Of a stretch of DNA of 64,000 bases, positions 9,448 to 26,400 are shown piece after piece. The DNA lies in NCBI GenBank assembly GCA_017450065.1, contig JAFSYI010000083.1, forward strand, positions 142,562 to 206,561. The letters are read 5' to 3'. Positions within the stretch are counted from its first letter, which is position 1. Each line of letters begins with the position of its first letter. The DNA comes from Lachnospiraceae bacterium. GTDB taxonomy: Bacteria; Bacillota; Clostridia; Lachnospirales; Lachnospiraceae. Made by a program: the position numbers and the translations under genes. The notes beneath the pieces were generated by a model. The model was not told the origin of the DNA. It saw only the letters and a program-made list of their open reading frames with translations, and did not search any database.

Positions 9448-10491
9448 ATGGCTGATCTTAATGAATTAAGCGAGAAGCTGAGCAGTATAAAGGCTGAGAT
9501 CAAGGCAGAGCTTGAGAAGAAAGAAACGTCTAAAAGTGTTTTTGAGTACAGAAAGACGATATTTGATTCCAAGACCGGTAAGATCGGAAGCCTTATGCGT
9601 GAAATGGGAAAGATCCCGAATGAAATGAAGGCCGAATACGGTAAGCGCGTCAATGAGATGAAAGCATGGGCGCAGGATATGTTTGAAGAAATGGATGAAA
9701 AGTTCCGAAAGGAGGAGATGAAGCACAGATACGAGTCTGAGAAGCTTGATGTGACCATGCCGGCCCGGGAAATAAAGATCGGATATCTTCATCCCAATAC
9801 CCTTATAAGGAACAGGATAGTTGATATCTTCGGATCGATGGGCTTTGAGATATATGAAGGAACAGAGATAGAGACCGATTATTATAATTTTACGGCACTC
9901 AATACACCGGATGACCATCCGGCAAGGGACATGCAGGATACCTTCTATCTGTCGGATAAGTTCCTGCTGCGTACACAGACATCTGCGGGACAGATCCATG
10001 TAATGGAAGCAAAGAAGCCTCCCATCAAGATAATATCTCCGGGTAAGGTGTTCCGCTCGGATGATGACGCCACACATTCACCGATGTTCTCCCAGATGGA
10101 GGGACTCGTTGTTGATAAGGGGATCACACTGTGCGACCTTAAGGGAATGCTTGATGAATTCGTAAGGAGGATATTCGGAGAGGGCACAAGCACCAGACTG
10201 CGTCCTTCGTATTTCCCTTTTACAGAGCCTTCCGTTGAGGTGGATGTAAGCTGTTTCCAATGCCACGGCAAGGGCTGTAAGCTGTGCAAGGGTACCGGCT
10301 GGATAGAGGTACTCGGCGCCGGAGTGGTTAATAAGAAGGTACTTGAGGGCTGCGGTATTGATCCGGATGTGTACAGCGGATTCGCATTCGGTATAGGTAT
10401 AGAAAGAATTGCGATGCTCAAGTACGGAATCAATAATATAAAGCTGCTGTTTGAATCGGATCTGAGGGTACTTGAACAGATAAGAGAGTAG
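9448..10491 (+). CDS. pheS: Phenylalanine--tRNA ligase alpha subunit
   Basis: A 347-residue class II aminoacyl-tRNA synthetase subunit that charges tRNA-Phe in an (alpha beta)2 complex. It has an N-terminal coiled coil (residues 1-100), motif 2 region [20 protein letters not shown], and the end motif [20 protein letters not shown] (motif 3). The cysteine-containing [19 protein letters not shown] insertion, a CxxCx3CxxC cluster, is seen in many bacterial PheS. AAAGGAG is 8 bases before the ATG. pheT follows 28 bases later. No T-box leader is visible in the 220 bases upstream. Confidence 0.97.
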
Positions 10492-10519
10492 TAAAAAAAC
10501 AAGGTAAAGGAGATTGGCA

Positions 10520-12940
10520 ATGTTAGTTCCGTTAAGTTGGCTTAAGGAATATGTTGATATAAACATTTCGGTTGATGAGCTGGAGGAGAAGCTGTTCTCA
10601 TGCGGCTTCGAGGTTGAGGAAAAATATGAGGTAGGACATGACATAAGTAAAGTAGTTGTCGGATATGTTGAGGAGTGTGAACCGATACCCGACACACATC
10701 TTCATTTGTGCAAGGTTAATGCGGGAGAAGCAGGAGTACTTCAGATATGCTGCGGTGCGGACAATGTAAGGGCCGGCGGAAAGTTCCCTCTTGCTCTTAT
10801 CGGGGCAACCGTATATGCAACGGCAAAGGATCATAAAACGGTCGAAGGAGTAATGACGATAGGACAGGGTAAGCTGAGAGGATATGATTCCTTCGGTATG
10901 CTATGCTCGGGAGTGGAAATAGGACTTACCGAGGACATGTATGAAGGCGCGGGATACAACGGTCTTTTGGTACTTCCCGATGATGCCGTGACAGGAGCGG
11001 ATGTAAAGCCAATAGTAGGGCTTGACGACTGGATATTTGACATAGCGATAACAGCCAACAGGCCCGACTGCCAGAGCATCTTCGGAATCGCACGGGAGGT
11101 CGCTGCGGTGCTTGGTACGAAGCTTCATGAACCGGCACTTGATTATACGGAGACAGAGGTTAAGAAGGAAGGCTTTGCGGTTAAGGTTGCGGCACCCGAT
11201 ATATGCCCGAGGTACATAGGTCATTATGTATATGATGTAAAGATAGCTCCGAGCCCCGCATGGATGAGAAGAAGACTTGCTCTCATAGGCCAGACGCCAA
11301 TATCGAACTTGGTTGACATAACTAATTATATACTTAATGAACTCGGGCAGCCGATGCATGCTTTTGACTATGCTTATCTTGAAGGCGATCAGATAAACGT
11401 AAGACGTGCGGAAGACGGTGAAAAGATAGTAACTCTTGATGAGAAGGAGCTTACTTTAAACAGCAGTAATCTGGTGATCTGTGACGGAGTTAAGCCGGTT
11501 GCTCTTGCAGGCATAATGGGAGGTCTTAATTCGGAGATACTTGATTCCACGACAGAGGTACTGTTTGAGGCTGCCAAGTTCGCAAGAGACAATATAAGAA
11601 AAAGTTCAAGGGCACTCGGCAAAGCATCGGATTCCTCGGCAAGATTCAGCAAGGGAGTTGATGAGTATACTACAGTCATGGCGATGAAGAGAGCTCTTCA
11701 CCTTATAGAGGAGCTTGACTGCGGCAAGGTAAGTTCAACGCATGTAGATACCAACACGGGCAACACGATCGAAGCATCAGAGCTTAAGGTCAGTGTGAAT
11801 AAAGTGAACGGAGTTCTTGGCATCACAGTTCCTACGGATGATATATTGAGGATACTGAAGGGACTTGCCTTTGATCCCGTACTTGAGGGTGATGAGCTTA
11901 CACTTAGGGTTCCGGCTTACAGAGAGGACATGGAGTCATATCAGGATGTTGCCGAAGAGGTTATACGTATGTATGGCTATGATCATGTGAAGGGGACCTT
12001 CATGCCGACAGCTGAGGTAACCCTGGGCGGATATAATCTTGAACAGAAGACAGAGCTTAAGATTAAGCGGGCTCTGTGTGCGGCCGGAGCAAGCGAGGGA
12101 GTTCATTATTCCTTCTTCTCGCCTTCATCACTGGATCTTATAGGACTTCCTGAGGATGCGTGGGAGCGTAAGGCTATAAGGATAATGAATCCGATAAATG
12201 AGGATCTTTCTCTTATGAGGACCACTCTGGCTCCGCAGATGATACAGGCAATGCAGAGGAACCAGAAGAAGGGCATACTGGAAGGCCGTATATATGAATT
12301 GGGAAATATATTTGTACCGGGATCACTTCCTCTTACCGAGTATCCTGAAGAGCTTGAGACGATATGCATAGGGTGCTTTGGCGAGGATGAGGATTTCTTC
12401 TCTGTAAAGGGTGTTGTCGAGGTGGTTGCGGACACGCTTGGAACAGAATTTGAGTACGAAGCTTCACAAAAGCCCTTCCTTCATCCGTACAGGACCGCAA
12501 AGATCCTGTGCAACGGAGAAGAGGTCGGATACATGGGCCAGATAAAATATGAGCTTATAGATGAACTTGATATGAGGGTTGATTCTTTCATTGCGCAGAT
12601 AGATCTGTATAAGCTTAAGAAGTATTATGCGGGTGAACAGACCTTCATACCTCTTCCCAGATTCCCGGAAGAGAAGAGAGATCTTTGTTTTGTTATGGAT
12701 AAGAACATAACCTGTGCCCAGATAGAGAAGGAGATAAAGAACAGCTGTGAGCTTATCACGGATGTAAAGCTGTTTGATGTTTATGAAGGAATGCAGCTTG
12801 GGATGGATAAGAAGAGCATGGCTTTTACCGTGGTATATACACCGGGCGAGGAGGAGCTTACATCCGATAAGGTGGACGGATATGTATCCGGGCTTCTTGA
12901 AACACTTAAGGATAAGTATGGTGCCGTATTAAGAAGCTGA
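10520..12940 (+). CDS. pheT: Phenylalanine--tRNA ligase beta subunit
   Basis: An 806-residue subunit that binds tRNA-Phe and carries the editing domain. It starts MLVPLSWLKEYVDI, the usual PheT start, followed by an OB-fold tRNA-binding domain (about 40-150), the B3/B4 editing region with IGQTPISNLVDITNYILNEL near 255, the B5 domain near 400-470, the catalytic-like core and a C-terminal anticodon-binding FDX-ACB domain (FPEEKRDLCFVMDKNITCAQ near 717). ATG 10520 is chosen since AAAGGAGA is 6 bases upstream; a TTG two codons earlier overlaps that site. Length matches the family (about 800). Confidence 0.97.
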   Translation: MLVPLSWLKEYVDINISVDELEEKLFSCGFEVEEKYEVGHDISKVVVGYVEECEPIPDTHLHLCKVNAGEAGVLQICCGADNVRAGGKFPLALIGATVYATAKDHKTVEGVMTIGQGKLRGYDSFGMLCSGVEIGLTEDMYEGAGYNGLLVLPDDAVTGADVKPIVGLDDWIFDIAITANRPDCQSIFGIAREVAAVLGTKLHEPALDYTETEVKKEGFAVKVAAPDICPRYIGHYVYDVKIAPSPAWMRRRLALIGQTPISNLVDITNYILNELGQPMHAFDYAYLEGDQINVRRAEDGEKIVTLDEKELTLNSSNLVICDGVKPVALAGIMGGLNSEILDSTTEVLFEAAKFARDNIRKSSRALGKASDSSARFSKGVDEYTTVMAMKRALHLIEELDCGKVSSTHVDTNTGNTIEASELKVSVNKVNGVLGITVPTDDILRILKGLAFDPVLEGDELTLRVPAYREDMESYQDVAEEVIRMYGYDHVKGTFMPTAEVTLGGYNLEQKTELKIKRALCAAGASEGVHYSFFSPSSLDLIGLPEDAWERKAIRIMNPINEDLSLMRTTLAPQMIQAMQRNQKKGILEGRIYELGNIFVPGSLPLTEYPEELETICIGCFGEDEDFFSVKGVVEVVADTLGTEFEYEASQKPFLHPYRTAKILCNGEEVGYMGQIKYELIDELDMRVDSFIAQIDLYKLKKYYAGEQTFIPLPRFPEEKRDLCFVMDKNITCAQIEKEIKNSCELITDVKLFDVYEGMQLGMDKKSMAFTVVYTPGEEELTSDKVDGYVSGLLETLKDKYGAVLRS

Positions 12941-13014: not shown

Positions 13015-14454
13015 ATGGAAACAAAAAACGCATGGGAAGCATATTCCGCAAAACAGCTTAAGGAGCTTGAAGCTGTAAGCGGGGAGTATATTGACTTTAT
13101 CAGCAGCTGTAAGACGGAACGCGAATGTGTTGACCGCATCGTTGAAGAAGCCGAGGCCGCAGGGTTTAAAGAGCTTAATGCCCTGATAGCTGATAAAGCG
13201 GAAATAAAGAAGGGGGATAAGATATATTCGGTATGGATGAATAAATCGGTCGTCCTGTTTAAGATCGGCTCCCGTCCGATAAGCGAAGGTATGAACATTC
13301 TGGGTGCGCATATCGATTCACCGCGTCTTGACGTAAAGCAGAATCCTCTTTACGAAGACAGCGGGTTTGCATATCTTGATACGCATTATTACGGCGGCGT
13401 CAAGAAATATCAGTGGGTGACTATTCCGCTCGCACTCCATGGTGTTATCGTTAAGAAGGATGGTACGACGGTTATCGTAAACATCGGTGAGAATGAAGAC
13501 GATCCCGTATTCTTTGTTTCCGATCTGCTCATCCATCTTGCACAGGAGCAGATGGAGAAGAAGGCCAATAAGGTGATAGAAGGAGAGGCACTTGATATAC
13601 TGGTCGGTAACAGGCCTCTTGTTATAAAGAAAAGCACGGGGAAGAAAGAACCGGGTAAGGAGAATGAAGAAGGTAAAGCCGGCGCCAGGGACAAGGTTAA
13701 GAATAATATCCTGGAAATACTTAAGAATACCTATGGTGTTGAGGAAGAGGATTTCCTGTCGGCAGAGCTTGAGGTGGTGCCTGCGGGCAGGGCCAGGGAG
13801 ACAGGGTTTGACAGGAGTATGATCCTTGGTTACGGACATGATGACAGAGTATGTGCATATCCTTCACTCCGGGCTATCCTTAATTCGGGTGAGACAGAGA
13901 GGACGGCCTGCTGCATTCTTGTCGACAAGGAAGAGATAGGCAGTGTGGGCGCGACGGGAATGAAATCGCATTTCTTTGAGAATATGGTGGCTGAGATCCT
14001 TAATCTGAGCGGGGATTATTCGGGAATACTGCTTAAGAGGACTCTCGCCAATTCGTGCATGTTAAGCTCTGACGTGAGTGCCGGCTACGATCCGCTGTAT
14101 GCTTCCGTATTCGATAAGAAGAACGTATGCTACCTTGGGAACGGTATGGTATTTAACAAATATACCGGTTCGAGGGGAAAGTCGGGCAGCAATGATGCCA
14201 ATGCCGAGTATATCGCTTATCTTCGCGGAATACTTGATAAGGATAAGGTTGTATACCAGACGGCCGAGCTTGGCAGGGTGGATGCAGGCGGAGGCGGAAC
14301 GATAGCATATATACTCGCTTTATACGGTATGAACGTAATTGATGCGGGCGTGGCTGTTCTTAACATGCATGCGCCATGGGAATGCATAAGCAAGGCTGAC
14401 CTGTATGAGGCGTACAGGTGTTATACGGCGTTTTTAAAAGGACAGGGACTGTGA
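13015..14454 (+). CDS. M18 family aminopeptidase (aspartyl aminopeptidase type)
   Basis: A 479-residue zinc aminopeptidase of family M18, a cytoplasmic enzyme that removes N-terminal residues, often acidic ones. The metal-binding motifs are [20 protein letters not shown] (His and the first Asp), [16 protein letters not shown] (catalytic Glu) and, near the end, [19 protein letters not shown] with the last His. [16 protein letters not shown] holds the bridging Asp. AAGGAGA precedes the ATG by 5 bases. A charged Lys/Glu-rich insertion lies near residues 205-225. The stop overlaps the GTG start of queA by 3 bases, so the two are probably coupled. Confidence 0.93.
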
Positions 14455-15479
14455 TCAAAAAATCTGATTTTTATTTTGAACTTCCCGGGGAGCTTATCGC
14501 ACAGGATCCGCTTGAAGACAGATCCGCCTCAAGACTTCTTGTGCTTGATAAGAACACAGGTGAAGTCAGCCATGATACATTTAAGAACATCGGAGATTAT
14601 CTTAAGCCCGGTGACTGCCTTGTGCTTAACAATACAAAGGTTATCCCGGCAAGACTTCTGGGCGTGAAAGAAGATACGGGAGCCAATGTGGAGGTCTTTC
14701 TTCTGAAACGGCATGAAGATGATGTATGGGAAACACTTGTCAGGCCGGGTAAGAAGCTGAGGCCGGGAGCCCGTGTCAGCTTCGGGGACGGTCTCTTAAG
14801 ATGTGAGATACTTAAGGTGGAAGAAGAGGGAAACCGGCTTGTAAAGTTCTTCTATGACGGAATATTCGAAGAGATACTGGACCGGCTCGGTGAGATGCCC
14901 CTTCCGCCTTATATTACCCATAAGCTTAAGGACAGGGACAGGTATCAGACCGTGTATGCAAGATACGAAGGTTCTGCTGCGGCGCCGACTGCGGGACTTC
15001 ACTTTACAAAGGAGCTCCTGAAGGAGCTTGAAGGTAAGGGTATAGATATAGCCTATGTTACACTGCATGTGGGACTCGGCACCTTCAGGCCCGTTAAGAC
15101 GGATAATATCCTTGAGCATCATATGCATTCCGAAATGTATATGATAAACGAAGAGGCGGCAGGGAAGATAAACAGGGCCAAGGAGAACGGGCACCGTGTT
15201 GTCTGCGTCGGGACTACAAGCTGCAGAACGGTTGAAAGCGCGGCGGATGAGAACGGACGGATAAATCCCTGCAGCGGTGATACGGATATATTTATATATC
15301 CGGGTTACAGATTTAAGGTTCTTGACTGTCTTATTACTAATTTCCATCTTCCCGAATCAACGCTTGTGATGCTTGTAAGCGCGCTTGCAGGACGACAGAA
15401 CGTTCTTGATGCCTATGAAGAGGCAATAAGGGAGCGATACAGGTTCTTCTCGTTCGGGGATGCGATGTTTATACACTGA
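14451..15479 (+). CDS. queA: S-adenosylmethionine:tRNA ribosyltransferase-isomerase QueA
   Basis: A 342-residue enzyme that transfers the ribosyl part of SAM onto preQ1 in tRNA to form epoxyqueuosine. The start is set at GTG 14451, giving [20 protein letters not shown], the canonical QueA N-terminus, with AAAGGACAGG upstream. An ATG at 14418 would add 11 residues that do not fit. Family motifs: [40 protein letters not shown] and [16 protein letters not shown]. It shares an operon with the M18 peptidase. No tgt or other queuosine genes are in the window. Confidence 0.96.
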
Positions 15480-15537
15480 AGGACCGGGGATGTTTAACGC
15501 TGCCGGGTTATCTTAAACGTAAGGAGGGAGAAAGCTT

Positions 15538-15876
15538 ATGGAAGAAAAGAGAAGAAGCAGAAGAATGGTACTTAACGCACATCTGACGATGAATCCCGTA
15601 GGTGAAGCCATGGGAGAAAAGGTACCTGTTGACATCATCGATATAAGCAAGGACGGACTGGGCTTTGCCTGTGACACTCCGCTTGCAATGAATGCGATCT
15701 ACGAAATGGATCTTACCATCTGGACAAAGGATGTTATCCATACGTTTATAAATGTCACCCGTTTTGACGGAAAGAGCAATATGTACGGAGCCACATTTAC
15801 CGGTATGAACGGAAGCGATCAGGATAAGATAAAGATATATGAATTATTTGACAGAGCTGCCAGGGAACTGAATTAA
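15538..15876 (+). CDS. PilZ domain protein, probable cyclic di-GMP receptor
   Basis: A 112-residue stand-alone PilZ domain. The c-di-GMP binding signature is nearly complete: the N-terminal arginine motif EKRRSRRMVLN (RxxxR) and DIIDISKDGLGFAC (the D/N-x-S-x-x-G element). The later YGATFTGM matches the closing strand of the fold. AAGGAGGGAG lies 8 bases before the ATG. It is placed between queA and the phosphoglycerate mutase homologue, only 11 bases before the latter. Partner and output are unknown; single PilZ domains usually act by protein contact. Confidence 0.85.
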   Translation: MEEKRRSRRMVLNAHLTMNPVGEAMGEKVPVDIIDISKDGLGFACDTPLAMNAIYEMDLTIWTKDVIHTFINVTRFDGKSNMYGATFTGMNGSDQDKIKIYELFDRAARELN

Positions 15877-15887
15877 CGGAGATTCTG

Positions 15888-17447
15888 ATGGGAAAGAAAA
15901 CAACTGTCCTGCTCATGCTTGACGGGTTTGGAATATCTGATAACAAAAAGAACAATGCCTTTTATGAAGCAAAGACACCTGTGCTTGATAAGCTTATGAA
16001 GGAATATCCCACAGCAAGAGGCCTTTCTTCCGGGATCGCAGTCGGCCTTCCGAACGGCCAGCCGGGGAATGCGGAAGTGGGATACCGTAATATCGGGGCG
16101 GGAAGGATAGTCTATCAGGAGCTAAGCAGGATCAATAAGGAGATAATGCAGAGGTCTTTTTTTGAGAATGAGGTTCTGCTTGAGACAATAGATCACTGCA
16201 GGCGAAACGATTCGGCGCTGCATATAATGGGACTTCTGTCGGACGGCGGAGTTCATTCCCACATAAGGCATCTGTATTCGCTGCTTGAGCTGGCAGCCGC
16301 GAACGGTCTCAGAAAGGTTTATGTACACTGCTTTACGGATGGACGGGATGCGCCGGTGCACTCCGGAGCCCGCTACATTGAACACCTTCAGGCTGCAATG
16401 AGGGAAATAGGAGCAGGTGAGATCGCAACCGTAAGCGGACGTTATTACGCAATGGACCGGGATAACAATTACGACCGGATCAAAGCGGTTTATCTCGCAA
16501 TGACCCAGGGCGAAGGAAATAAAGCGTCCAATGCGGTCGAAGCTGTTCTTGCATCATACGATAACGGGATAACCGATGAATTCATTAAACCTACGGTAAT
16601 AGTTAACGGAGGTGTTCCGGTGGGAACAGTAAATGATGATGATTCGGTGATCTTCTTTAACTTCAGGCCGGACAGGGCAAGGGAGCTGACAAGAGCCTTC
16701 TGCGAAGACGAATTCCGTATGTTTAAGAGGGAGAGACTTAACAATATATGTTTCTCCTGTTTTAACGATTATGATACTTCGATCGAAAACAAGAATTCCA
16801 TTCTTTCCGTTCAGCCGGTTGTAAATACGCTCGGTGAATACATAAGTCTGTGCGGGGGGACCCAGTTAAGGCTTGCGGAATCAGAGACCGCTTCATATGT
16901 AACTGTGTTTTTTGACAGCAGGCAGGGAGAACCGTATGATGGGGAAGACAGGCTGATAATCCGTTCGCTGAAGAATGTCGAGACCTATGACAGGGTGCCG
17001 GGTATGAATTCTTCTGCGGTCTGCGACAGACTTGTAAGCGAAATAGACGACGGAAGATATGATTTCATATTGTGCAGTCTTCCCAATGCAGATGTTGTAG
17101 GGCATACAGGCAGCATGGAGGCATCAGTCAGGGCCTGCGAGATCGTGGACGAATGTGTCGGAAGGATTTATGATGCCGTAATACGGAGCGGAAGCGTTAT
17201 GTTTATATGCTCCACTCACGGAAAAGCCGAACAGCTTACATATAATCCGGCACCGGAGCATGAGGAACCTTTCACCGGACATACCATGAATCCCGTTCCG
17301 GTCATCATGGTTAATTATACGGAAGGAGTCGGCCTCAGGGATATCGGCTGTCTTGCGGATATCGCACCGACGATACTTGAATCGATGGACATTAAAAAGC
17401 CACGGGAAATGACGGGAAAATCGCTTCTTGTGCGTCCAAATGTCTGA
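15888..17447 (+). CDS. Phosphoglycerate mutase (iPGM)-family paralogue lacking the catalytic serine, probably not a mutase
   Basis: A 519-residue protein with the full architecture of cofactor-independent phosphoglycerate mutase and many conserved blocks: LDGFG (Asp12), GGVHSHIRHL, DGRD, SGRYYAMDRDNNYDR, FNFRPDRAREL, NADVVGHTG (Asp402, His406) and GHTMNPVPV (His465). However, the catalytic Ser62 of GNSEVGH is Ala62 (GNAEVGY, codon GCG at 16071). The DHG metal motif reads STHGKAEQ (Thr443). The substrate Lys and His of the usual EKYxH motif are Thr334 and Tyr337. So the second Mn site and the phosphoserine nucleophile are lost while the frame stays open. An AlkP-superfamily protein with a new role is inferred; residue equivalences follow Bacillus iPGM from memory. 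Confidence 0.88.
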   Translation: MGKKTTVLLMLDGFGISDNKKNNAFYEAKTPVLDKLMKEYPTARGLSSGIAVGLPNGQPGNAEVGYRNIGAGRIVYQELSRINKEIMQRSFFENEVLLETIDHCRRNDSALHIMGLLSDGGVHSHIRHLYSLLELAAANGLRKVYVHCFTDGRDAPVHSGARYIEHLQAAMREIGAGEIATVSGRYYAMDRDNNYDRIKAVYLAMTQGEGNKASNAVEAVLASYDNGITDEFIKPTVIVNGGVPVGTVNDDDSVIFFNFRPDRARELTRAFCEDEFRMFKRERLNNICFSCFNDYDTSIENKNSILSVQPVVNTLGEYISLCGGTQLRLAESETASYVTVFFDSRQGEPYDGEDRLIIRSLKNVETYDRVPGMNSSAVCDRLVSEIDDGRYDFILCSLPNADVVGHTGSMEASVRACEIVDECVGRIYDAVIRSGSVMFICSTHGKAEQLTYNPAPEHEEPFTGHTMNPVPVIMVNYTEGVGLRDIGCLADIAPTILESMDIKKPREMTGKSLLVRPNV

Positions 17448-17487
17448 AAAGTAGAAACAAATTAAACTAAATATACAAAACCCTCAA

Positions 17488-17534
17488 AATAATGTTGATT
17501 ATTCACAAAAACTATTGCGATAATCAGCATTATT
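17488..17534 (+). promoter_or_regulatory. 15-bp inverted repeat overlapping the EF-G paralogue promoter
   Basis: Arms AATAATGTTGATTAT (17488-17502) and ATAATCAGCATTATT (17520-17534) pair with one G-T wobble across a 17-base loop. The right arm fills most of the promoter spacer (17515-17543). It could be an operator, or the terminator of the upstream gene, though no T tract follows. Confidence 0.5.
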
Positions 17535-17543
17535 TAGTACAAT
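17515..17543 (+). promoter_or_regulatory. Promoter of the EF-G paralogue
   Basis: TTGCGA (17515-17520) and TACAAT (17538-17543), 17-base spacer, about 50 bases before the start codon. GGAGGG serves as ribosome binding site. Confidence 0.6.
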
Positions 17544-17596
17544 ATTAAAGGTGCATTTCAGTTGCATCAATAATACTAATTGGAGGGTACAATTAT

Positions 17597-19693
17597 ATGA
17601 ATGTTTATACCGGTGACAAGATCCGTAATGTGGTTTTGCTGGGCCATGGTGGCTGTGGAAAGACCACACTTGTTGAGGCAATGGCTTATCTTTCCGGAAT
17701 AACCACCAGAATGGGCAAGGTAAGTGATGGAAATACCATAAGTGATTATGATAAAGAAGAGCAGAAGAGACAGTTCTCCATAAGCACATCTGTGATCCCT
17801 ATAGAATGGGAAGGCAATAAGATCAATATTCTGGATACACCCGGTTATTTTGATTTTGTAGGTGAAGTAGAAGAGGCGGTTGCCGCAGCGGCGGGAGCTG
17901 TAATTGTTGTATCCGGAAAGGCCGGCATCGAGGTGGGTACGGAGAAGGCATGGGAAATGTGCGATAAGTACAATCTTCCGAGGATAATCTTTGTTACCGA
18001 CATGGATGTGGATAATGCAAGCTTCAGGCAGGTTGTAGAGGACCTTACGGCCAAATACGGCAAGAAGATAGCACCCTTCCATCTTCCCATAAGAGAAGAC
18101 GAGAAGTTTGTCGGATATGTGAACGTTGTTTCCGAGACCGCTTATAAGTGGGAGAAGGACGGAAAGGCTACCGAATGCGAGATCCCCGATTACAATAAAG
18201 AGAACCTCGGAAAGTTCAGGGATATCCTTATGGAGACCGTAGCCGAGACAAGTGAAGAGTTCATGGAGAGGTATTTCGGCGGTGATACATTCTCGGAAGA
18301 TGAGATAAGAGCTGCCCTTAAGGCAAATATCAATGACGGAAGCATAGTTCCGGTTACCTGCGGCTCTTCAGTTCTCTGTCAGGGAGTATATACACTTATT
18401 GATGATATAATCAAGTATTTCAAGAGTCCCGATACAAGAAGCATTGCCGGAATAAATGTAAAGACCAACGAGATATTCGAAGCCAATTACGATTTCAGCA
18501 AGCCAAAGTCGGCGATCATCTGGAAGACCATAGTAGATCCGTTTATAGGAAAGTACTCGCTGATCAAGGTATGTTCCGGAGTTATCAAGGCGGATGATAC
18601 GCTCTATAACAACGATAAGGATGTTGAAGAGAAAATATCCAAGCTGTATGTGTTAAGAGGAAATAAGCCTATAGAGGTTAAGGAGCTTCATGCAGGCGAT
18701 ATCGGAGCAATTGCGAAGCTTACGGCTGCAAGAACAGGCGATACGCTGTCAACCAAGGCTACGACCATCCAGTATGCCCGTACAGATATCAGCAAGCCTT
18801 ATACATGTATGAGATACAAGGCCAGGAATAAAGGTGATATCGACAAGATCTCCGGTGCTCTTCAGAAGATGATGCATGAAGATCTGACTCTTAAGAATGT
18901 TAACGATGCAGAGAACAGACAGACACTTCTTTATGGAATGGGTGACCAGCATCTCGAGATAGTGGCAAGCAAGCTTCTCAGCGAATACAAGTGTGAGATA
19001 GAGCTTACCGAACCCAAGGTGGCATACCGTGAGACGATCCGTAAGACTTCGGATGTTGATGCGAAGTATAAGAAGCAGTCCGGAGGACACGGACAGTACG
19101 GACATGTTAAGATGAAGTTTGAGCCTCTCGGCAATATGGACAAGGCATATGAATTCGAGCAGATAGTAGTCGGTGGAGCAGTTCCGAAGAACTACTTCCC
19201 GGCAGTTGAGAAGGGGCTTGCGGAGTCGGTTCTTAAGGGCCCCCTGGCAGCATATCCGGTTGTCGGAGTTAAGGCCATCCTTTATGACGGATCATACCAC
19301 CCGGTAGATTCTTCGGAGCAGGCCTTTAAGATGGCTACGATCCAGGCCTTCAAGAAAGGCTTTATGGAAGCAGGCCCTGTTCTGCTTGAGCCCATTGCTT
19401 CACTTAAGGTTACGGTTCCCGATGATTATACCGGTGATGTTATGGGAGATCTTAACAAGAGACGCGGTCGTGTTCTGGGCATGAATCCCATAGGCGGAGG
19501 CAAGCAGACGATAGAGGCGGAGATCCCGATGACAGGACTGTACGGATACTGTACGGTACTTCGTTCAATGACGGGTGGACGCGGTGTTTACGAATATGAA
19601 TTCCTCCGTTATGAGCAGGCTCCCAATGATGTCCAGGAGAAAGAGGTTGCGGCAAGGGCAAGCAAGCTTACGGACGAAGGCGGAGAAGATTAA
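17597..19693 (+). CDS. EF-G-like translational GTPase (elongation factor G paralogue)
   Basis: A 698-residue, five-domain EF-G family protein. The P-loop is GHGGCGKTT (residues 16-24), the G3 motif is DTPGYFDFVGE, and domain IV has GGHGQYGHVKMKFEPL near 495. The G4 motif that reads NKMD in canonical EF-G is TDMD here (FVTDMDVDNASF), so nucleotide specificity or affinity may differ. The G2 region (SDGNTISDYDKEEQKRQFSI) also departs from the usual GxxxxDxxxxE+ERGITI sequence: the arginine-glycine-isoleucine core is missing. This fits the paralogous EF-G group found in many Clostridia rather than the str-operon fusA. It has its own promoter and terminator. The function is not established from sequence. 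Confidence 0.88.
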   Translation: MNVYTGDKIRNVVLLGHGGCGKTTLVEAMAYLSGITTRMGKVSDGNTISDYDKEEQKRQFSISTSVIPIEWEGNKINILDTPGYFDFVGEVEEAVAAAAGAVIVVSGKAGIEVGTEKAWEMCDKYNLPRIIFVTDMDVDNASFRQVVEDLTAKYGKKIAPFHLPIREDEKFVGYVNVVSETAYKWEKDGKATECEIPDYNKENLGKFRDILMETVAETSEEFMERYFGGDTFSEDEIRAALKANINDGSIVPVTCGSSVLCQGVYTLIDDIIKYFKSPDTRSIAGINVKTNEIFEANYDFSKPKSAIIWKTIVDPFIGKYSLIKVCSGVIKADDTLYNNDKDVEEKISKLYVLRGNKPIEVKELHAGDIGAIAKLTAARTGDTLSTKATTIQYARTDISKPYTCMRYKARNKGDIDKISGALQKMMHEDLTLKNVNDAENRQTLLYGMGDQHLEIVASKLLSEYKCEIELTEPKVAYRETIRKTSDVDAKYKKQSGGHGQYGHVKMKFEPLGNMDKAYEFEQIVVGGAVPKNYFPAVEKGLAESVLKGPLAAYPVVGVKAILYDGSYHPVDSSEQAFKMATIQAFKKGFMEAGPVLLEPIASLKVTVPDDYTGDVMGDLNKRRGRVLGMNPIGGGKQTIEAEIPMTGLYGYCTVLRSMTGGRGVYEYEFLRYEQAPNDVQEKEVAARASKLTDEGGED

Positions 19694-19958: not shown

Positions 19959-22382
19959 ATGGCTACACCGTACAATCATGCTGCCGTTGAGAAAAAATGG
20001 CAGGAATACTGGGAAAAAAACGAGACTTTTAAGACCGATGTACATGATTTTTCCAAACCAAAGTATTACGCGCTTGATATGTTCCCTTATCCTTCGGGAG
20101 TGGGACTTCATGCGGGACATCCTGAAGGATATACCGCAACGGATATAATGTCGAGGATGAAGAGGATGCAGGGATATAACGTTCTCCATCCCATGGGATA
20201 CGATTCGTTCGGACTTCCTGCCGAGCAGTACGCCGTGAAGACGGGAAATCATCCCAACGGCTTCACACAGGAGAACATAAAGACCTTTTCCAAACAGCTT
20301 AAGGAGCTTGGTTTTGACTATGACTGGAGCAAGATGATAGCCACTTCGGATCCCAAGTTCTATAAATGGACGCAGTGGATATTCAAACAGCTCTATCTTG
20401 ACGGATATGCCAAGTATATAGATATGCCTGTCAACTGGTGCGAGGAGCTGGGCACAGTCCTTTCGAATGATGAGGTTATAGACGGTAAATCGGAACGCGG
20501 AGGATACCCTGTCGTCCGTAAGAATATGAAGCAGTGGGTAATAGACCAGCCGGCCTTTGCAGAGAAGCTGCTTGAAGGACTTGATGAGATAGACTGGCCG
20601 GTATCCACAAAGGAGATACAGCGTAACTGGATAGGCCGTTCCGAGGGTGTCGAGGTGGACTTTGAGATAGTCGGCGGTGGAAAGTTCTCAATATATACCA
20701 CCTGTATCGAGACCATATACGGTATTACATTTATGGTACTTGCACCGGATGGAAAGATCGTTCAGGAGCTTATGCCCAGGATCGAAAATAAAGAGGAAGT
20801 CCGGGCATATATAGACGAGACACTTAAGAAGAATGATATGGACAGGACCGAGCTTAACAAGACCAAGTCGGGCTGTGAGCTTAAGGGTCTTTCATGTATA
20901 AACCCCGTAAACGGGAAGGAAGCAAAGCTGTTTATCGGTGATTTCGTGCTTGCAAGCTACGGTACGGGAGCCGTAATGGCCGTTCCGTCGCATGACCAGC
21001 GTGACTTTGAATACGCTCAGGCACATAACATTCCGATGCTTCAGGTCATAGAAGGACGTGATGTGAGTGAGTGCGCATTTGAGAAGCATGATTATCTCGG
21101 AAAAGGCTGCAGGCTCATCAATTCCGGGGAATTTACCGGGCTTACGGTGGAAGAGGCAAAGGAAGCCATAACAGATAAGCTTGTTAAGATGGGCGTTGCA
21201 AGAAGAACGGTCAATTATCATTTCAGGGAATGGATATTCGCGCGTCAGCGCTACTGGGGTGAGCCTGTTCCGGTGGTTCATACGGAAGACGGAAAGATCC
21301 ATGTGCTTGATGATGATGAGCTGCCGCTTATCCTGCCCGAGCTTGAGGATTACAGGGGAAAGAACGGCAAGGCTCCTCTGGAGAATGCGGAAGAGTGGAA
21401 GAAATACGACCATAACGGCATAAAGGGAGTCCGTGAGACCTCCACAATGCCCGGATCTGCAGGATCCAGCTGGTATTTCCTCAGGTATATCGACCCCGAT
21501 AATGATGAGGTATTCGCGGATCAGGAACTGCTTAAACACTGGATGCCGGTGGATCTTTATATCGGCGGACCTGAGCATGCCGTAGGTCATCTTATGTATT
21601 CGAGAATATGGAACAGATATCTGTACGACAAGGGACTCTCCCCGGTAAAGGAGCCGTTTAAGAAGCTTGTGCATCAGGGTATGATCCTTGGTGAGAACGG
21701 TATTAAGATGGGTAAGCGTTTCCCTGAATTTGTTGTCAATCCGAGCGATATAGTCAGAGAGTACGGAGCCGATACTCTGAGGCTGTATGAAATGTTCATG
21801 GGACCTCTTGAGGTCAGCAAGCCATGGAGCCAGCAGGGCGTAGAGGGGGCAAGAAGGTTTATAAACCGCGTCTTTACCTTCTTTACTTCTGAAGGGAATA
21901 TCGTTGATGAGCAGGTTCCTTCACTTGACAGGCTTTATCATAAGACCGTTAAGAAGATAACGGATGATTTTGAGAAGCTTGCATTCAATACGGCAATATC
22001 CCAGATGATGATCTTTGTTAATGCTCTGTATAAAGAGGGAAAGTGTCCGAAGGAATATGCCGAGAGCTTCATTAAGATGTTTTCATGCATATGCCCGCAT
22101 GTGGGTGAAGAAATATGGGAGAGCCTGGGACATGATAACACCCTTGCTTATGAACCGTGGCCCGGATATGACGCACAGATGTGTAAGGATGACACTGTTG
22201 AGATCGGCGTTCAGGTAAACGGCAAGGTAAAGGGAACAGTCGGGATAGCGGTGGATGAGGCAAAGGATGCTGCCATCGCAAAGGCAAAGGAAGCAGAAGG
22301 CGTGGCAAGGGCAATAGAAGGAAAGACCATCGTAAAAGAGATATATGTGCCCGGAAAGATAATAAATATAGTTGTTAAGTAG
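19959..22382 (+). CDS. leuS: Leucine--tRNA ligase
   Basis: An 807-residue class I synthetase that charges tRNA-Leu. The HIGH motif is in FPYPSGVGLHAGHPEGYTAT. The editing CP1 domain spans about 220-420, with the typical SYGTGAVMAVPSHDQRDFEY near 328-347. The zinc/leucine-specific region and WYFLRYIDPDN follow. The KMSKS loop reads KMGKR (GIKMGKRFPEFVVNPSDIV), a conservative variant. The C-terminal domain ends VQVNGKVKGTVG and KEIYVPGKIINIVVK as in bacterial LeuRS. The start ATG follows GAGAGGCAACAAA, a modest ribosome binding site. A strong terminator follows the gene. Confidence 0.97.
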   Translation: MATPYNHAAVEKKWQEYWEKNETFKTDVHDFSKPKYYALDMFPYPSGVGLHAGHPEGYTATDIMSRMKRMQGYNVLHPMGYDSFGLPAEQYAVKTGNHPNGFTQENIKTFSKQLKELGFDYDWSKMIATSDPKFYKWTQWIFKQLYLDGYAKYIDMPVNWCEELGTVLSNDEVIDGKSERGGYPVVRKNMKQWVIDQPAFAEKLLEGLDEIDWPVSTKEIQRNWIGRSEGVEVDFEIVGGGKFSIYTTCIETIYGITFMVLAPDGKIVQELMPRIENKEEVRAYIDETLKKNDMDRTELNKTKSGCELKGLSCINPVNGKEAKLFIGDFVLASYGTGAVMAVPSHDQRDFEYAQAHNIPMLQVIEGRDVSECAFEKHDYLGKGCRLINSGEFTGLTVEEAKEAITDKLVKMGVARRTVNYHFREWIFARQRYWGEPVPVVHTEDGKIHVLDDDELPLILPELEDYRGKNGKAPLENAEEWKKYDHNGIKGVRETSTMPGSAGSSWYFLRYIDPDNDEVFADQELLKHWMPVDLYIGGPEHAVGHLMYSRIWNRYLYDKGLSPVKEPFKKLVHQGMILGENGIKMGKRFPEFVVNPSDIVREYGADTLRLYEMFMGPLEVSKPWSQQGVEGARRFINRVFTFFTSEGNIVDEQVPSLDRLYHKTVKKITDDFEKLAFNTAISQMMIFVNALYKEGKCPKEYAESFIKMFSCICPHVGEEIWESLGHDNTLAYEPWPGYDAQMCKDDTVEIGVQVNGKVKGTVGIAVDEAKDAAIAKAKEAEGVARAIEGKTIVKEIYVPGKIINIVVK

Positions 22383-22608: not shown

Positions 22609-23406
22609 ATGGCCGGAAAAAACAAGGGGAAAAAAGAGAAGCTGAGGAAGCTTTTCCGGACACTGTGCGGAAGTGCGGCACTATTGTGTCTGGGTTATTT
22701 TGCTGTTTATGTATATATGTCGCACAGCTCGACAGACCGGTCTGAGGGGCTGTCTGCGATCAAAGAAAAGGACAACGGTAATGAGACACCGGTAGTCGTT
22801 CACCTGAGCGAGGATCCCAGGGCTCCGGAAATGCTCGATAAGTTCAGCAAGCTGTATCTTAAGAATAAAAGCATTGTAGGCTGGATAGAGATAGAGGGCA
22901 CGGAGATAGATTATCCGGTACTCCAGTCCTCCAATGAAGAATATTATCTGGATCATAATTTCGATCAGGAGAAGGACAATAACGGTTCCATATTTATTGA
23001 TAAGGAATGCAGTATCTGGCCGCGGAGCCAGAATATAATCATATACGGTCACAACATGAAATCCGGGAAAATGTTCGGAACCCTGGACAAATACAAGGAC
23101 AAGGGTTACTGCGAGAAGCATCCGGTTATCAAGTTCGATACACTGTATGAAAGCGGCGAGTACAGAGTCATGTATGTTTTCAACGAAATAGTGCATGAGG
23201 AGGCTGAAGTAACCTTCAAGTATTATCAGTTTGTTAATGCCAATTCGGCTCAGGAATACAGATCGAACATGAATGAGATGGCGAAGATGTCGTTATATGA
23301 CACCGGAATAGAATCCTATTACGGAGACAGTCTGATAACGCTGTCAACGTGTGATTATTCCGAGGGCGCGCAAAGATTTGTCGTTGTGGCCAAAAAGATA
23401 GGATAG
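22609..23406 (+). CDS. Class B sortase
   Basis: A 265-residue membrane-anchored transpeptidase that cleaves a C-terminal sorting motif and links the protein to peptidoglycan. It has a basic N-terminus, one membrane segment (about residues 21-41), and the catalytic His in IIIYGHNMKSGKMFG, Cys in LITLSTCDYSEG and Arg in RFVVVAKK. The H-C-R spacing and the TLSTC motif fit class B rather than class A. GAGGGGA precedes the ATG. It lies 26 bases before a protein with a TPKTG signal. Clostridial class B sortases that use (S/P)PXTG-like motifs are known, so that protein is the probable substrate. Confidence 0.93.
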   Translation: MAGKNKGKKEKLRKLFRTLCGSAALLCLGYFAVYVYMSHSSTDRSEGLSAIKEKDNGNETPVVVHLSEDPRAPEMLDKFSKLYLKNKSIVGWIEIEGTEIDYPVLQSSNEEYYLDHNFDQEKDNNGSIFIDKECSIWPRSQNIIIYGHNMKSGKMFGTLDKYKDKGYCEKHPVIKFDTLYESGEYRVMYVFNEIVHEEAEVTFKYYQFVNANSAQEYRSNMNEMAKMSLYDTGIESYYGDSLITLSTCDYSEGAQRFVVVAKKIG

Positions 23407-23432
23407 GAGTCAGTATAAAACGGGAGTATATT

Positions 23433-26400
23433 ATGTCGGATAAGGGAAAAAAGAGTGTAAAAAAGAATAGAAGATTCCGGATAAGGAAAAGAGCGAGGAT
23501 GACGATAGCTTCACTGCTGCTTGTTTCCGCGCTTATCGTATCGCTGATACCTACACAGACAAAGATACAGGCCTACGTCGATCCGACCATCGATGTAATG
23601 TCACTTGATGGGGTTATCGGTAATTATTCTGTTTTCAATGAATCCGATACCTCGGTGACCGCGGACAGCGGTACGGATATATACATGGCGTTTCCGCTTG
23701 CGGAGGAAATGACCATAACGGACTATAACGGTTCGGCACATACCTATTATGCCATAAATATGGCGGGAATGACCGGAACAAATGCGGTGCCTGTTTTCGA
23801 GATGGGAACAAAGACGGTAAGCGGCGGCAAGTATTCGGCACTTATCGAATATATCGGATACAGGAATGAGTATGATACGGACACGATCGATCTGACGAAG
23901 AGCGTATGCTTCAATGGAAAAAGCAGCTCGGAGCTTACTGCTTTTTATGAAAAGGCCGACGGTGGCAAGGTAAATTACTGTACGGAGGAATATTCCAACT
24001 ATACGGACAAGCTGGGGAATAACTATAATATCCTTCATATAAAGAAGCTTGAGCTTAATTTTGATCCGGGAGACAGCGAACAGGTTGAGTGGACCAATGC
24101 CCATCCAGACCCGGTTGCGGATGACTGGTACGGGCATTTCGGAGTCGTTGCGGGTACGGATCAGTATATAGACAACCTGTGTCTTGATAAATGCAGCGTT
24201 GATTATCTTTGCGACAACTCATTTGAAAAAGCAACTCCCAGGACAATAAACATACCGACGGAATTATATGAGCTTGGCAACTGTACCTTTAAGGATTGTC
24301 CCAATCTGAGCGATGTGCATATAGGAAACAAGGTAAAGACGGTGGGACGTGAATGCTTTGCCGGCTGCGGTAATCTGAAGAGTCTTAATATAGGAGACTG
24401 CTCATATCTTGAGACTATCGGTGATGCGGCTTTTGCCGGCTGCGGGTTCAATTCGCTCCAGCTCCCGAACAATCAGAACTTAAAGATTGGAGCAGGGGCT
24501 TTCTATGGCTGTTACAATCTTAATGACAGTCTCGATCCTTCACAGGGAATGTTCGGCAAATACGTACAGGCAGGCTCGAGCGGAGTGGCAAGGATAGGAG
24601 CCTATGCCTATGCCAACTGTACATCCCTTACCGATATGTCAATGTATGCAAGGCTTCAGAGCCTGACAACGGGTGGAAGCGAGGATTCGGCATTTGAAGG
24701 CTTCTTTGCCGGATGTACTTCGCTTAAGCATGTGGAACTTCCGTCAACCTACGGCGACTCGTCTTACAGCAGCTCCACAGCGGCCACACTCGGACAGTTT
24801 ACATTCCAGAAGTGTAATAATCTTGAATATGTTAAGTTCAATACACATAATTCAAGGCCGTATGATGACTATCAGTTCGTAACGACGGCAACACTGGATT
24901 ATGCGATGGCCGAGAATGAGAATTACAATATGCCCACGGTTGCGGACTCGTTCGTTATCTGGGGTCCCAATCCATATCCTGCAGCGACCAATGAAGCTGC
25001 GGCACATATCAGCGCGCAGGATTTCTCCAATACCTATATGTATTTCGATACTGAAGGGAACAGGGTATATGAGCTGAATCTCGGCGGCTATGTATTTAAT
25101 TTCAATAACGGAAGGATCAATAAGATAATTCCCACGGAAAATTCGAAACCCACTCTTGTTATTCCCACGACCATAGGCGATGAAGCAATTACGGCTATAG
25201 GTGAGTATGCTTATGACAGTGACAGTAAATATGCCGGCAAGCTTGAGAAGCTTACCATACCCGACACGATAAGATCGATCGGCGGTTATGCGTTTAGGAA
25301 TCTGCCTGAACTGAAGAAGGTATATATAAACACAGTCGGAGTAGATGTGGGAATAGGAGCTTTCTCCGGAAATCCCTCGCTTCTGTATGTAAGGTTCGGA
25401 CAGACCGGTAACGGTTCGGAAACGAAAATAGGAGACAAGGCATTCTACAACTGTCCGGAGCTTCTGGAGGTTGATTTCAGGGATGATGCCTATGATTCGG
25501 ACACCATTTATGATGTGAATGTAACCTCGATAGGTACGGATGCATTCAAGACAAACCGTCAGAACTCATTCAATGACAGTGCTCTTGAGGCTGCGGGTCT
25601 TAACCGGCTCGGAAGTGACAAGAGCAGCGTGAACGGGCTGTGGCTTGTGATGAAGGGAAGTACCGCAAGGGATTATGTCCCCTACTGTTTTGCACTTAAC
25701 CTCGATACTGCCGGTACAACGGGCAGAGCTTCACAGTCCCCGGGGCTTAAGGCGATGGTTCCTTCGCTTGACGGGACAAGGGTACTTCCGCTGGGACTCT
25801 GCAATCTGTTCACCGTTAAGGTATATGCGGCAACCGGCGGAAACAAGGTAAGTACCAAATACAACAGCTATATAACCTATGCAAGCGGAAACCCGGATAA
25901 TATATCGATGAGATATAATGAGGATGAATCCAGGGGTGAAGTGGGCGTGAGTCTTATAACTTATCCGACACCGGAGACAACCGTCGGAAAGATATATGAT
26001 GACAGCGGTGAAGTTATAGGAAATGTATATGCAAAAGACATTATCCAGAAAAGCCAGGCAGGGGAGGAACCACAGGTTACCGAAAGGGATATATTATCAA
26101 AGCTCCAGAATATCGTTATTCCCGACGGAGTGGATCTGATCGATGAGACAGTTAACTCAATGGATCCCACAAAAGAATACCTGAGGGGAATAAAGGCCAC
26201 AGTAGGAGATGAAGAGAACGGAGTAAATACGATAACGTTCAACCTGAATTCACTACCGGATGAGGAAGGCCTGTTTACAGAGGATGATTATCTTACGAAT
26301 ATATTCTTCAACGAAAACGTTGAACATCTTGGAACCCTTCCTTTCTTAAGCGCAGAGAAGCTTGCGAATATTTCGTTCAATGCTGAGGGAAATATGACTG

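Follow-up and report, generated by a model that had tools for sequence, protein, structure and literature searches.

The window, by which we mean the whole analysed stretch of 64,000 nucleotides from a Lachnospiraceae bacterium, holds a phosphoglycerate mutase gene of the iPGM type (gpmI) directly behind a gene for a PilZ protein, with queA upstream and an EF-G homologue downstream (Table 1). The iPGM frame opens with ATG and contains no internal stop; GGAGA, the ribosome binding site, lies just 5' of the start, and 11 bp separate the gene from the PilZ stop codon. The initial annotation, which reported an open frame of 519 residues with a ribosome binding site directly after PilZ, was thus accurate. 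With 592.4 bits against a TIGR01307 cut-off of 330.65, and with matches to PF06415 and PF01676 as well, the product is a full-length homologue; its 533 bits for NF003897 lie below that profile's cut-off of 862, which is passed by none of 299 family genomes, intact enzymes included. No terminator-like site was detected in 15400-17700, and a promoter scan returned an uninformative 8 sites where 4.4 were expected. The PilZ protein carries RxxxR plus [DN]xSxxG, which we take to be the c-di-GMP-binding motif, and the window genome has 42 GGDEF matches, 40 of them over the cut-off.

Between pheT and queA lies an aminopeptidase-like gene (13015-14454, presumably encoding an aminopeptidase), which is seen in the window's branch of the genus and was not detected at this place in other branches. 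Within the shared gene order, we compared window 9448-12940 and 19959-22382 with L032, L034, L042, L045, L055-L057 and L060-L067. The pheT of other branches is 25-37% identical to the window's, versus 77-94% within the window's branch, and that of G028 and G029 is 70-71% identical; for leuS, four loci of other branches show 48-50% identity versus 89-92% in the window's branch. The pattern suggests that synthetase genes around the locus were exchanged in situ. Window 22609-27947 encodes what we take, from the translation, to be a sortase-like protein followed by a surface-type protein of 1504 residues with repeats, a long Ser/Gly tract and a C-terminus resembling a membrane anchor.

Table 1. 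Genes and sequence features at the PilZ-iPGM locus (window positions)
Feature	Position	Strand	Basis
queA, conserved upstream neighbour	14418..15479	+	PF02547 484.6 bits; synteny
PilZ protein, 112 aa	15538..15876	+	PF07238 24.6 bits (cut-off 22.5); RRSRR ... DISKDG
Degenerate iPGM orthologue, 519 aa	15888..17447	+	TIGR01307 592 bits; residue tables
Codon 62, gcg = Ala; nucleophilic Ser in enzymes	16071..16073	+	alignment
Transferase domain, residues 82-296	16131..16775	+	PF06415 limits; holds phosphoglycerate-binding and lineage-specific residues
Codon 334, acc = Thr; substrate Lys in enzymes	16887..16889	+	alignment
Codons 443-444, Thr-His; Asp-His in enzymes	17214..17219	+	alignment
EF-G homologue, downstream neighbour	17597..19693	+	profile match; synteny

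What is left of the active site

At 19 chosen positions the window protein reads DAYRHRDRDRRRTYDHTHH, compared with DSHRHRDRDRRRKHDHDHH in the intact gpmI of the same genome. Alignment to that gpmI and to PDB entries 1o99 and 1ejj places five substitutions: Ala62, Tyr66 (the His of GNSEVGH), Thr334 and Tyr337 (the Lys and His of EKYxH) and Thr443 (the Asp of DHG). Retained are Asp12, Asp402, His406, His444, His465, His123, Arg153, Asp154, Arg185, Arg191, Arg260 and Arg263. We assume that single-residue roles can be carried over from Geobacillus iPGM, so that metal site 1 would comprise Asp402, His406 and His465, and metal site 2 Asp12, Ser62, Asp443 and His444; the lysine at position 334 would contact the phosphate, and H123, R153, D154, R185, R191, R260 and R263 would be the substrate residues of the transferase domain. 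On these assignments metal site 1 and the transferase-domain residues are complete, whereas metal site 2 has kept Asp12 and His444 and lost Ser62 and Asp443, and neither the nucleophile nor the lysine of a functional iPGM is present. The residue numbering and the losses listed in the initial annotation (Ala62, Thr334, Tyr337 and Thr443, with metal site 1 kept) hold up in the alignment. The alanine is shared with 1o99, presumably an engineered, inactive Ser62-to-Ala mutant of Geobacillus iPGM, where 1ejj aligns Ser62; in 1o99, however, the neighbouring catalytic residues are intact.

An orthologue from a second species, in a separate assembly (G019), is 86% identical and has the same letters at all 19 positions, which makes a sequencing error very unlikely. 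With its catalytic residues missing, its frame intact and its sequence under purifying selection, the window protein is almost certainly a pseudoenzyme, as far as sequence can define one. The TIGR01307 profile nonetheless scores it as a mutase well above the cut-off, and automatic annotation would therefore put a dead enzyme into glycolysis.

The gpmI lineage behind PilZ

We searched 37 genomes of the genus (G000-G036) and found an iPGM match in 35. At this locus PilZ is directly upstream of iPGM in every one of the 35; the gaps, measured to start codons that a script assigned, range from -8 to 96 bp. All 35 aligned PilZ proteins contain both RxxxR and [DN]xSxxG; PilZ of G004, G022, G028 and G029 was read from L080, L073, L084 and L079, whose iPGM is identical. 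The two remaining genomes have no iPGM match; G033 has its PilZ at a contig end and G015 lacks a PilZ match, so neither counts as a genome that kept PilZ and lost the iPGM. EF-G is found downstream wherever the contig extends far enough. In most loci it is the immediate neighbour; gpmA intervenes in six and an aroA-like gene in G014 and G032, and in G029 the distance grows to about 4 kb. Outside the genus, no PilZ homologue was detected near gpmI in 68 of 68 loci, of which L091 and L102 have too little upstream sequence to judge.

The copies at the PilZ locus fall into 14 intact, 17 broken but full-length, three milder and one cut (G035, at a contig end after 311 residues, with Ala62 present). 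The milder ones are those of G014 (8/8 core residues), G032 (7/8) and G011 (two contig-end fragments); counts over the 17 broken copies leave out these three genomes and G035. None of the 17 retains all eight core residues together. All of them have lost the lysine, in whose place stands Asn, Thr, Gly or Ala; the Asp of DHG is gone from 14, Ser62 from 10 and Asp12 from seven. Conversely, H406 and H444 are kept in 17/17, D402 in 16/17 and H465 in 13/17, and among the ligand residues H123, D154, R185 and R260 are kept in 17/17, R191 and R263 in 16/17 and R153 in 12/17. GNAEVGY was considered as a signature of the variant clade and rejected, Ser62 being retained in 7/17 broken copies; the loss common to all is that of the lysine. 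The suggestion that such variants might form a clade with a fixed PilZ neighbour was thus borne out on both counts, with the motif itself falling away as its mark.

A quick tree with 76 rows gathers the broken and milder copies into a single clade of 22 rows (SH-aLRT 100), and gives 95 for 18 rows of broken copies. A more careful tree of 49 rows, built with 25 catalytic columns removed and without G011n, G035p, G019b and G007b, unites 20 broken and milder rows with support of 100/100 and the 17 fully broken ones with 98/88. Both trees nest this clade inside the PilZ-linked gpmI clade. Long branches lead to the broken copies in both, which leaves their detailed branching order uncertain. The queA-PilZ-iPGM order is common to intact and broken copies. 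By the joint evidence of tree and synteny, the window gene is the original gpmI of the genus, inherited vertically, and the intact copy elsewhere in its genome is the newcomer; the term paralogue in the initial annotation has to be given up, and a recent duplication within the genome is ruled out on the same grounds. Since all 14 intact copies have the PilZ neighbour, the adjacency is older than the catalytic loss, and PilZ was therefore not recruited by a dead enzyme.

The fewest state changes that the careful tree requires are four each at Asp12, Ser62, the lysine and His465 and three at Asp443, compared with zero at His123, Asp154 and Arg185. As reconstructed on this tree, the catalytic residues were lost piecemeal. 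With eight and seven of the eight core residues kept, the G014 and G032 copies may still be active, though both genomes have other mutases.

How far does the degeneration extend? Among the best 80 of 567 relatives, 78 are intact at all 19 positions, and the other two (L068, L069) are the G019 and G012 loci themselves. Relatives with public records are for the most part Lachnospiraceae metagenome-assembled genomes, and several of the window's nearest ones mention the rumen. In a residue check of 23 family genomes, chosen by eye among the weaker-scoring of 299, the catalytic residues present in the recovered pieces are intact; these were 33 matches, 30 of them with a locus, and many pieces are contig fragments. 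With 23 of the 299 covered at residue level, restriction to this genus is not established. In nine distant sequences of the same check, a single arginine position that lies outside the catalytic set is occupied by Gln.

Other mutases and enolase in the genus

The initial annotation had proposed looking for another intact gpmI in the genome, and there is one: a single further iPGM (G000:C76:15408-16991), 52% identical to the window protein and intact at 19/19 positions. It is carried by eight genomes of the window's branch, unlinked to the PilZ locus, and groups in the tree with the 530-aa-type gpmI of other Lachnospiraceae genera (76-89% identical). When the G000 stretch was used as query, six of the seven other carriers in the genus aligned over the gene and short adjoining pieces only, some of the contigs being short, and the G019 stretch shares longer flanks with it. 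Between G000 and G019 the second gpmI has a dS of 0.12, compared with 0.51-0.93 for genes of the PilZ locus. Given its tree position, its limited shared flanks and its low dS, the second gpmI looks to have been acquired or exchanged laterally. Tandem-like repeats with a 63-bp period (L046 7268-7750; self-matches 79-90% identical) lie about 1.7 kb upstream of it in the window genome. G021 has a third iPGM match of 40 residues at a contig end (G021:C29:5-124), perhaps an assembly duplicate.

Other carriers of a degenerate copy have other mutases. A gpmA lies immediately 3' of the broken iPGM, before EF-G, in G001, G007, G016, G017, G018 and G027, which belong to two sub-branches (all but G017 were seen twice); G007, a draft with 6% contamination, carries another intact gpmI as well. 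A different kind of gpmA, 79-85% identical to the first, is found elsewhere in G009, G014, G023 and G032, and also in G015, in which no iPGM was found. ApgM was found in G011 (as fragments), G014, G015 and G032. Altogether, another mutase was found alongside 19 of the 21 broken, cut or milder copies and alongside 2 of the 14 intact ones (Fisher p 8e-6; the genomes are related, so this is no test of independent events); the two without a detected one, G030 and G035, are drafts that are 90% and 82% complete. Very probably, then, the ancestral gpmI was displaced by other mutases.

The next glycolytic enzyme shows an odd pattern. A search for enolase (TIGR01060, E up to 1e-30) gave matches in 14 of the 37 genomes and none in the other 23. 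Of the 21 genomes whose copy is broken, cut or milder, 13 had a match; of the 14 with an intact iPGM, 13 had none, these being drafts 70-99% complete (G002, G010 and G036 at 99%). PF00113 agreed in 12 rechecked genomes, of which two (G000 and G034) were positive, and either profile detected enolase in each of the 14 control genomes. Where the mutase is intact, enolase is as a rule not found; where other mutases occur, it often is. Butyrivibrio and Pseudobutyrivibrio are known to have lost enolase, according to the accessible portions of two reports (PMC6912079, PMC7523725), in whose main texts, so far as available, the words phosphoglycerate mutase do not occur. One reading has lower glycolysis disappear early and return, along with a new mutase, in the window's branch.

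In bacteria, dPGM, iPGM and archaeal-type iPGM are distributed as a mosaic even among closely related lineages, with genes transferred laterally or lost, as described in the available part of PMC2964296; the genus is similar in that mutase types differ between close relatives. The extra copies mentioned in that portion of the paper are pseudogenes with stop codons, however, whereas the inactive copy is maintained here.

Constraint on the broken copies and possible functions

What might maintain a mutase that has lost its catalytic residues? The broken gene is clearly constrained and evolves under purifying selection. Its dN/dS is 0.086 (G000-G019), 0.072 (G005-G035, partial), 0.041 (G008-G030) and 0.033 (G012-G024, dS saturated), and could not be computed for G008-G009; four intact pairs, with dS also high, give an overlapping range of 0.016-0.041. 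In the same broken pairs it exceeds that of EF-G in 3/3 and that of PilZ in 3/4, and compares with 0.027-0.087 for the adjoining queA and 0.053-0.077 for the aminopeptidase. The broken gene evolves faster than the intact one, as branch lengths show more clearly than dN/dS. No internal stop occurs in any iPGM match of the genus. Intact frame, dN/dS and residue tables together back the initial annotation in its view of a maintained protein with lost mutase residues.

The constraint has shifted within the protein. Over 17 broken, 14 intact and 68 other gpmI sequences, mean pairwise identities of the N-terminal phosphatase part, the transferase domain and the C-terminal phosphatase part are 0.58, 0.66 and 0.47 in broken copies, 0.88, 0.90 and 0.89 in intact ones and 0.87, 0.80 and 0.86 in the others. 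Enzymes outside the genus thus vary more in the transferase domain than elsewhere, whereas broken copies preserve it better than the rest. Positions invariant in intact and other sequences are kept in the broken ones at 53/102 in the transferase domain versus 54/169 in both phosphatase parts (p 0.001). Of 33 positions diagnostic of the PilZ-linked lineage, 12/22 are kept in the transferase domain, 0/10 in the C-terminal part and 1/1 in the N-terminal part (p 0.004 for transferase versus C-terminal; p 0.02 with the phosphatase parts pooled). The 12 transferase residues are R172, K199, A219, I238, V239, N240, G241, V243, G246, N249, R277 and K280. The lineage's own residues are kept about as well as the universal ones, and this fits a lineage-specific role of the transferase domain, which conservation leaves undefined.

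Relative to GpmI (TIGR01307; PDB 1ejj, 1o98), the window protein is alike in being a full-length two-domain protein with metal site 1 and the transferase ligand residues kept, and unlike in lacking the nucleophilic Ser, the Lys and the metal site 2 Asp, in the place of its gene behind PilZ and in the shift of constraint to the transferase domain. It resembles pseudoenzymes in general (reviews PMC5106787 and PMC10211241) in that the fold is kept, catalytic residues are lost and the protein is maintained; a difference is that here the old orthologue is the one that died, and the active copies came later.

We envision that the genus's own gpmI sat behind PilZ while it was still an active mutase, and that in one branch other genes, namely two kinds of gpmA, a foreign-type gpmI and ApgM, took over the mutase reaction. 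The old protein would then have lost the phosphatase half of its active site bit by bit and would have been retained because its transferase domain serves another purpose. It may still bind 2- or 3-phosphoglycerate at that domain without turnover, phosphoglycerate being held electrostatically at the domain's surface according to the accessible text of PMC8113725, and it may work with the co-encoded PilZ c-di-GMP receptor, which would let the cell combine c-di-GMP signalling with the state of glycolysis. To the combined statement, namely a pseudoenzyme freed by mutase replacement and kept as a phosphoglycerate-binding partner of PilZ, we assign a probability of roughly 40%.

Its parts deserve separate weights. 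The fixed neighbour, the short or overlapping gaps, the PilZ motif and the many GGDEF genes would agree with iPGM being a partner of PilZ, for which the chance is about one in three; the adjacency may alternatively be mere operon inheritance. A mirror-tree comparison of PilZ with the transferase domain in the 17 broken copies yielded no PilZ-specific coevolution signal (partial correlation -0.15 when the other domain is controlled for, 0.21 when queA is); the eight intact copies, few in number and divided by a single deep fork, gave high values of 0.78 and 0.91. The partner role together with phosphoglycerate binding is tentative and could well be wrong. An extended version, in which the active ancestor already had two jobs as mutase and PilZ partner, replacement left a phosphoglycerate-sensing, c-di-GMP-linked protein and the 12 lineage-specific residues form part of a contact surface, is speculative and should be regarded as doubtful.

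Alternatively, the protein may be a neofunctionalised enzyme in which metal site 1 and the glycerate pocket serve another reaction, with a substrate that resembles phosphoglycerate. The retention of D402, H406, H465 and H444 and of the substrate residues would agree with this, and the superfamily does perform other chemistry, for example that of CMP-5'-phosphonoformate--3-phosphoglycerate phosphonoformyl transferase (NCBIfam; the window protein scores 11 bits against a cut-off of 545). The broken copies share no new catalytic set, however, as the various replacements of the lysine illustrate; metal ligands vary among relatives, with at least four changes each at D12, S62 and H465 on the tree, and the C-terminal phosphatase part is the least conserved. 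We therefore consider such an enzyme unlikely.

It is also conceivable that the protein is a slowly decaying leftover whose job has gone to another mutase and which persists through its operon place, with constraint on folding only. Long branches, piecemeal losses and the dN/dS of 0.033-0.086, set against the overlapping range of intact pairs, would be expected under such decay. The values nevertheless stay within the range of the adjoining queA and aminopeptidase genes, internal stops are lacking throughout the genus (G011 and G035 are broken only by contig ends and cannot be judged) and lineage-specific residues are retained in the transferase domain, which makes decay distinctly unlikely. 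As a regulatory subunit of the replacement mutase, the protein would resemble the inactive paralogues that stimulate S-adenosylmethionine decarboxylase or deoxyhypusine synthase in trypanosomes, a known type of activator in the accessible text of PMC5201418 and PMC3663545, and gpmA does lie directly downstream in all six genomes of two sub-branches. Yet the other mutase differs by species, being a gpmA unrelated to iPGM, a distantly related ApgM or a gpmI of the same family, which lies unlinked in eight genomes, and iPGM is described as a monomer in the available part of PMC8113725. A regulatory subunit is thus very unlikely. Assembly or sequencing error or contamination has virtually no probability, for although the genome is a draft (3.2 Mb, 88% complete, 3.4% contamination), the same substitutions recur in a separate assembly of another species, with intact frames and conserved synteny.

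Among open-access titles and the openings of abstracts, covered in part and with subscription journals and preprints outside, we found neither an iPGM pseudoenzyme nor a link between PilZ and phosphoglycerate mutase. The PilZ locus offers, at one place in one genus, a natural series from intact enzyme through milder copies to dead protein, alongside three other mutase types (gpmI, gpmA and ApgM). With such a series one can ask directly whether the second function of a glycolytic enzyme preceded the loss of its first. If the link to PilZ is true, it would tie metabolites of lower glycolysis to c-di-GMP signalling.
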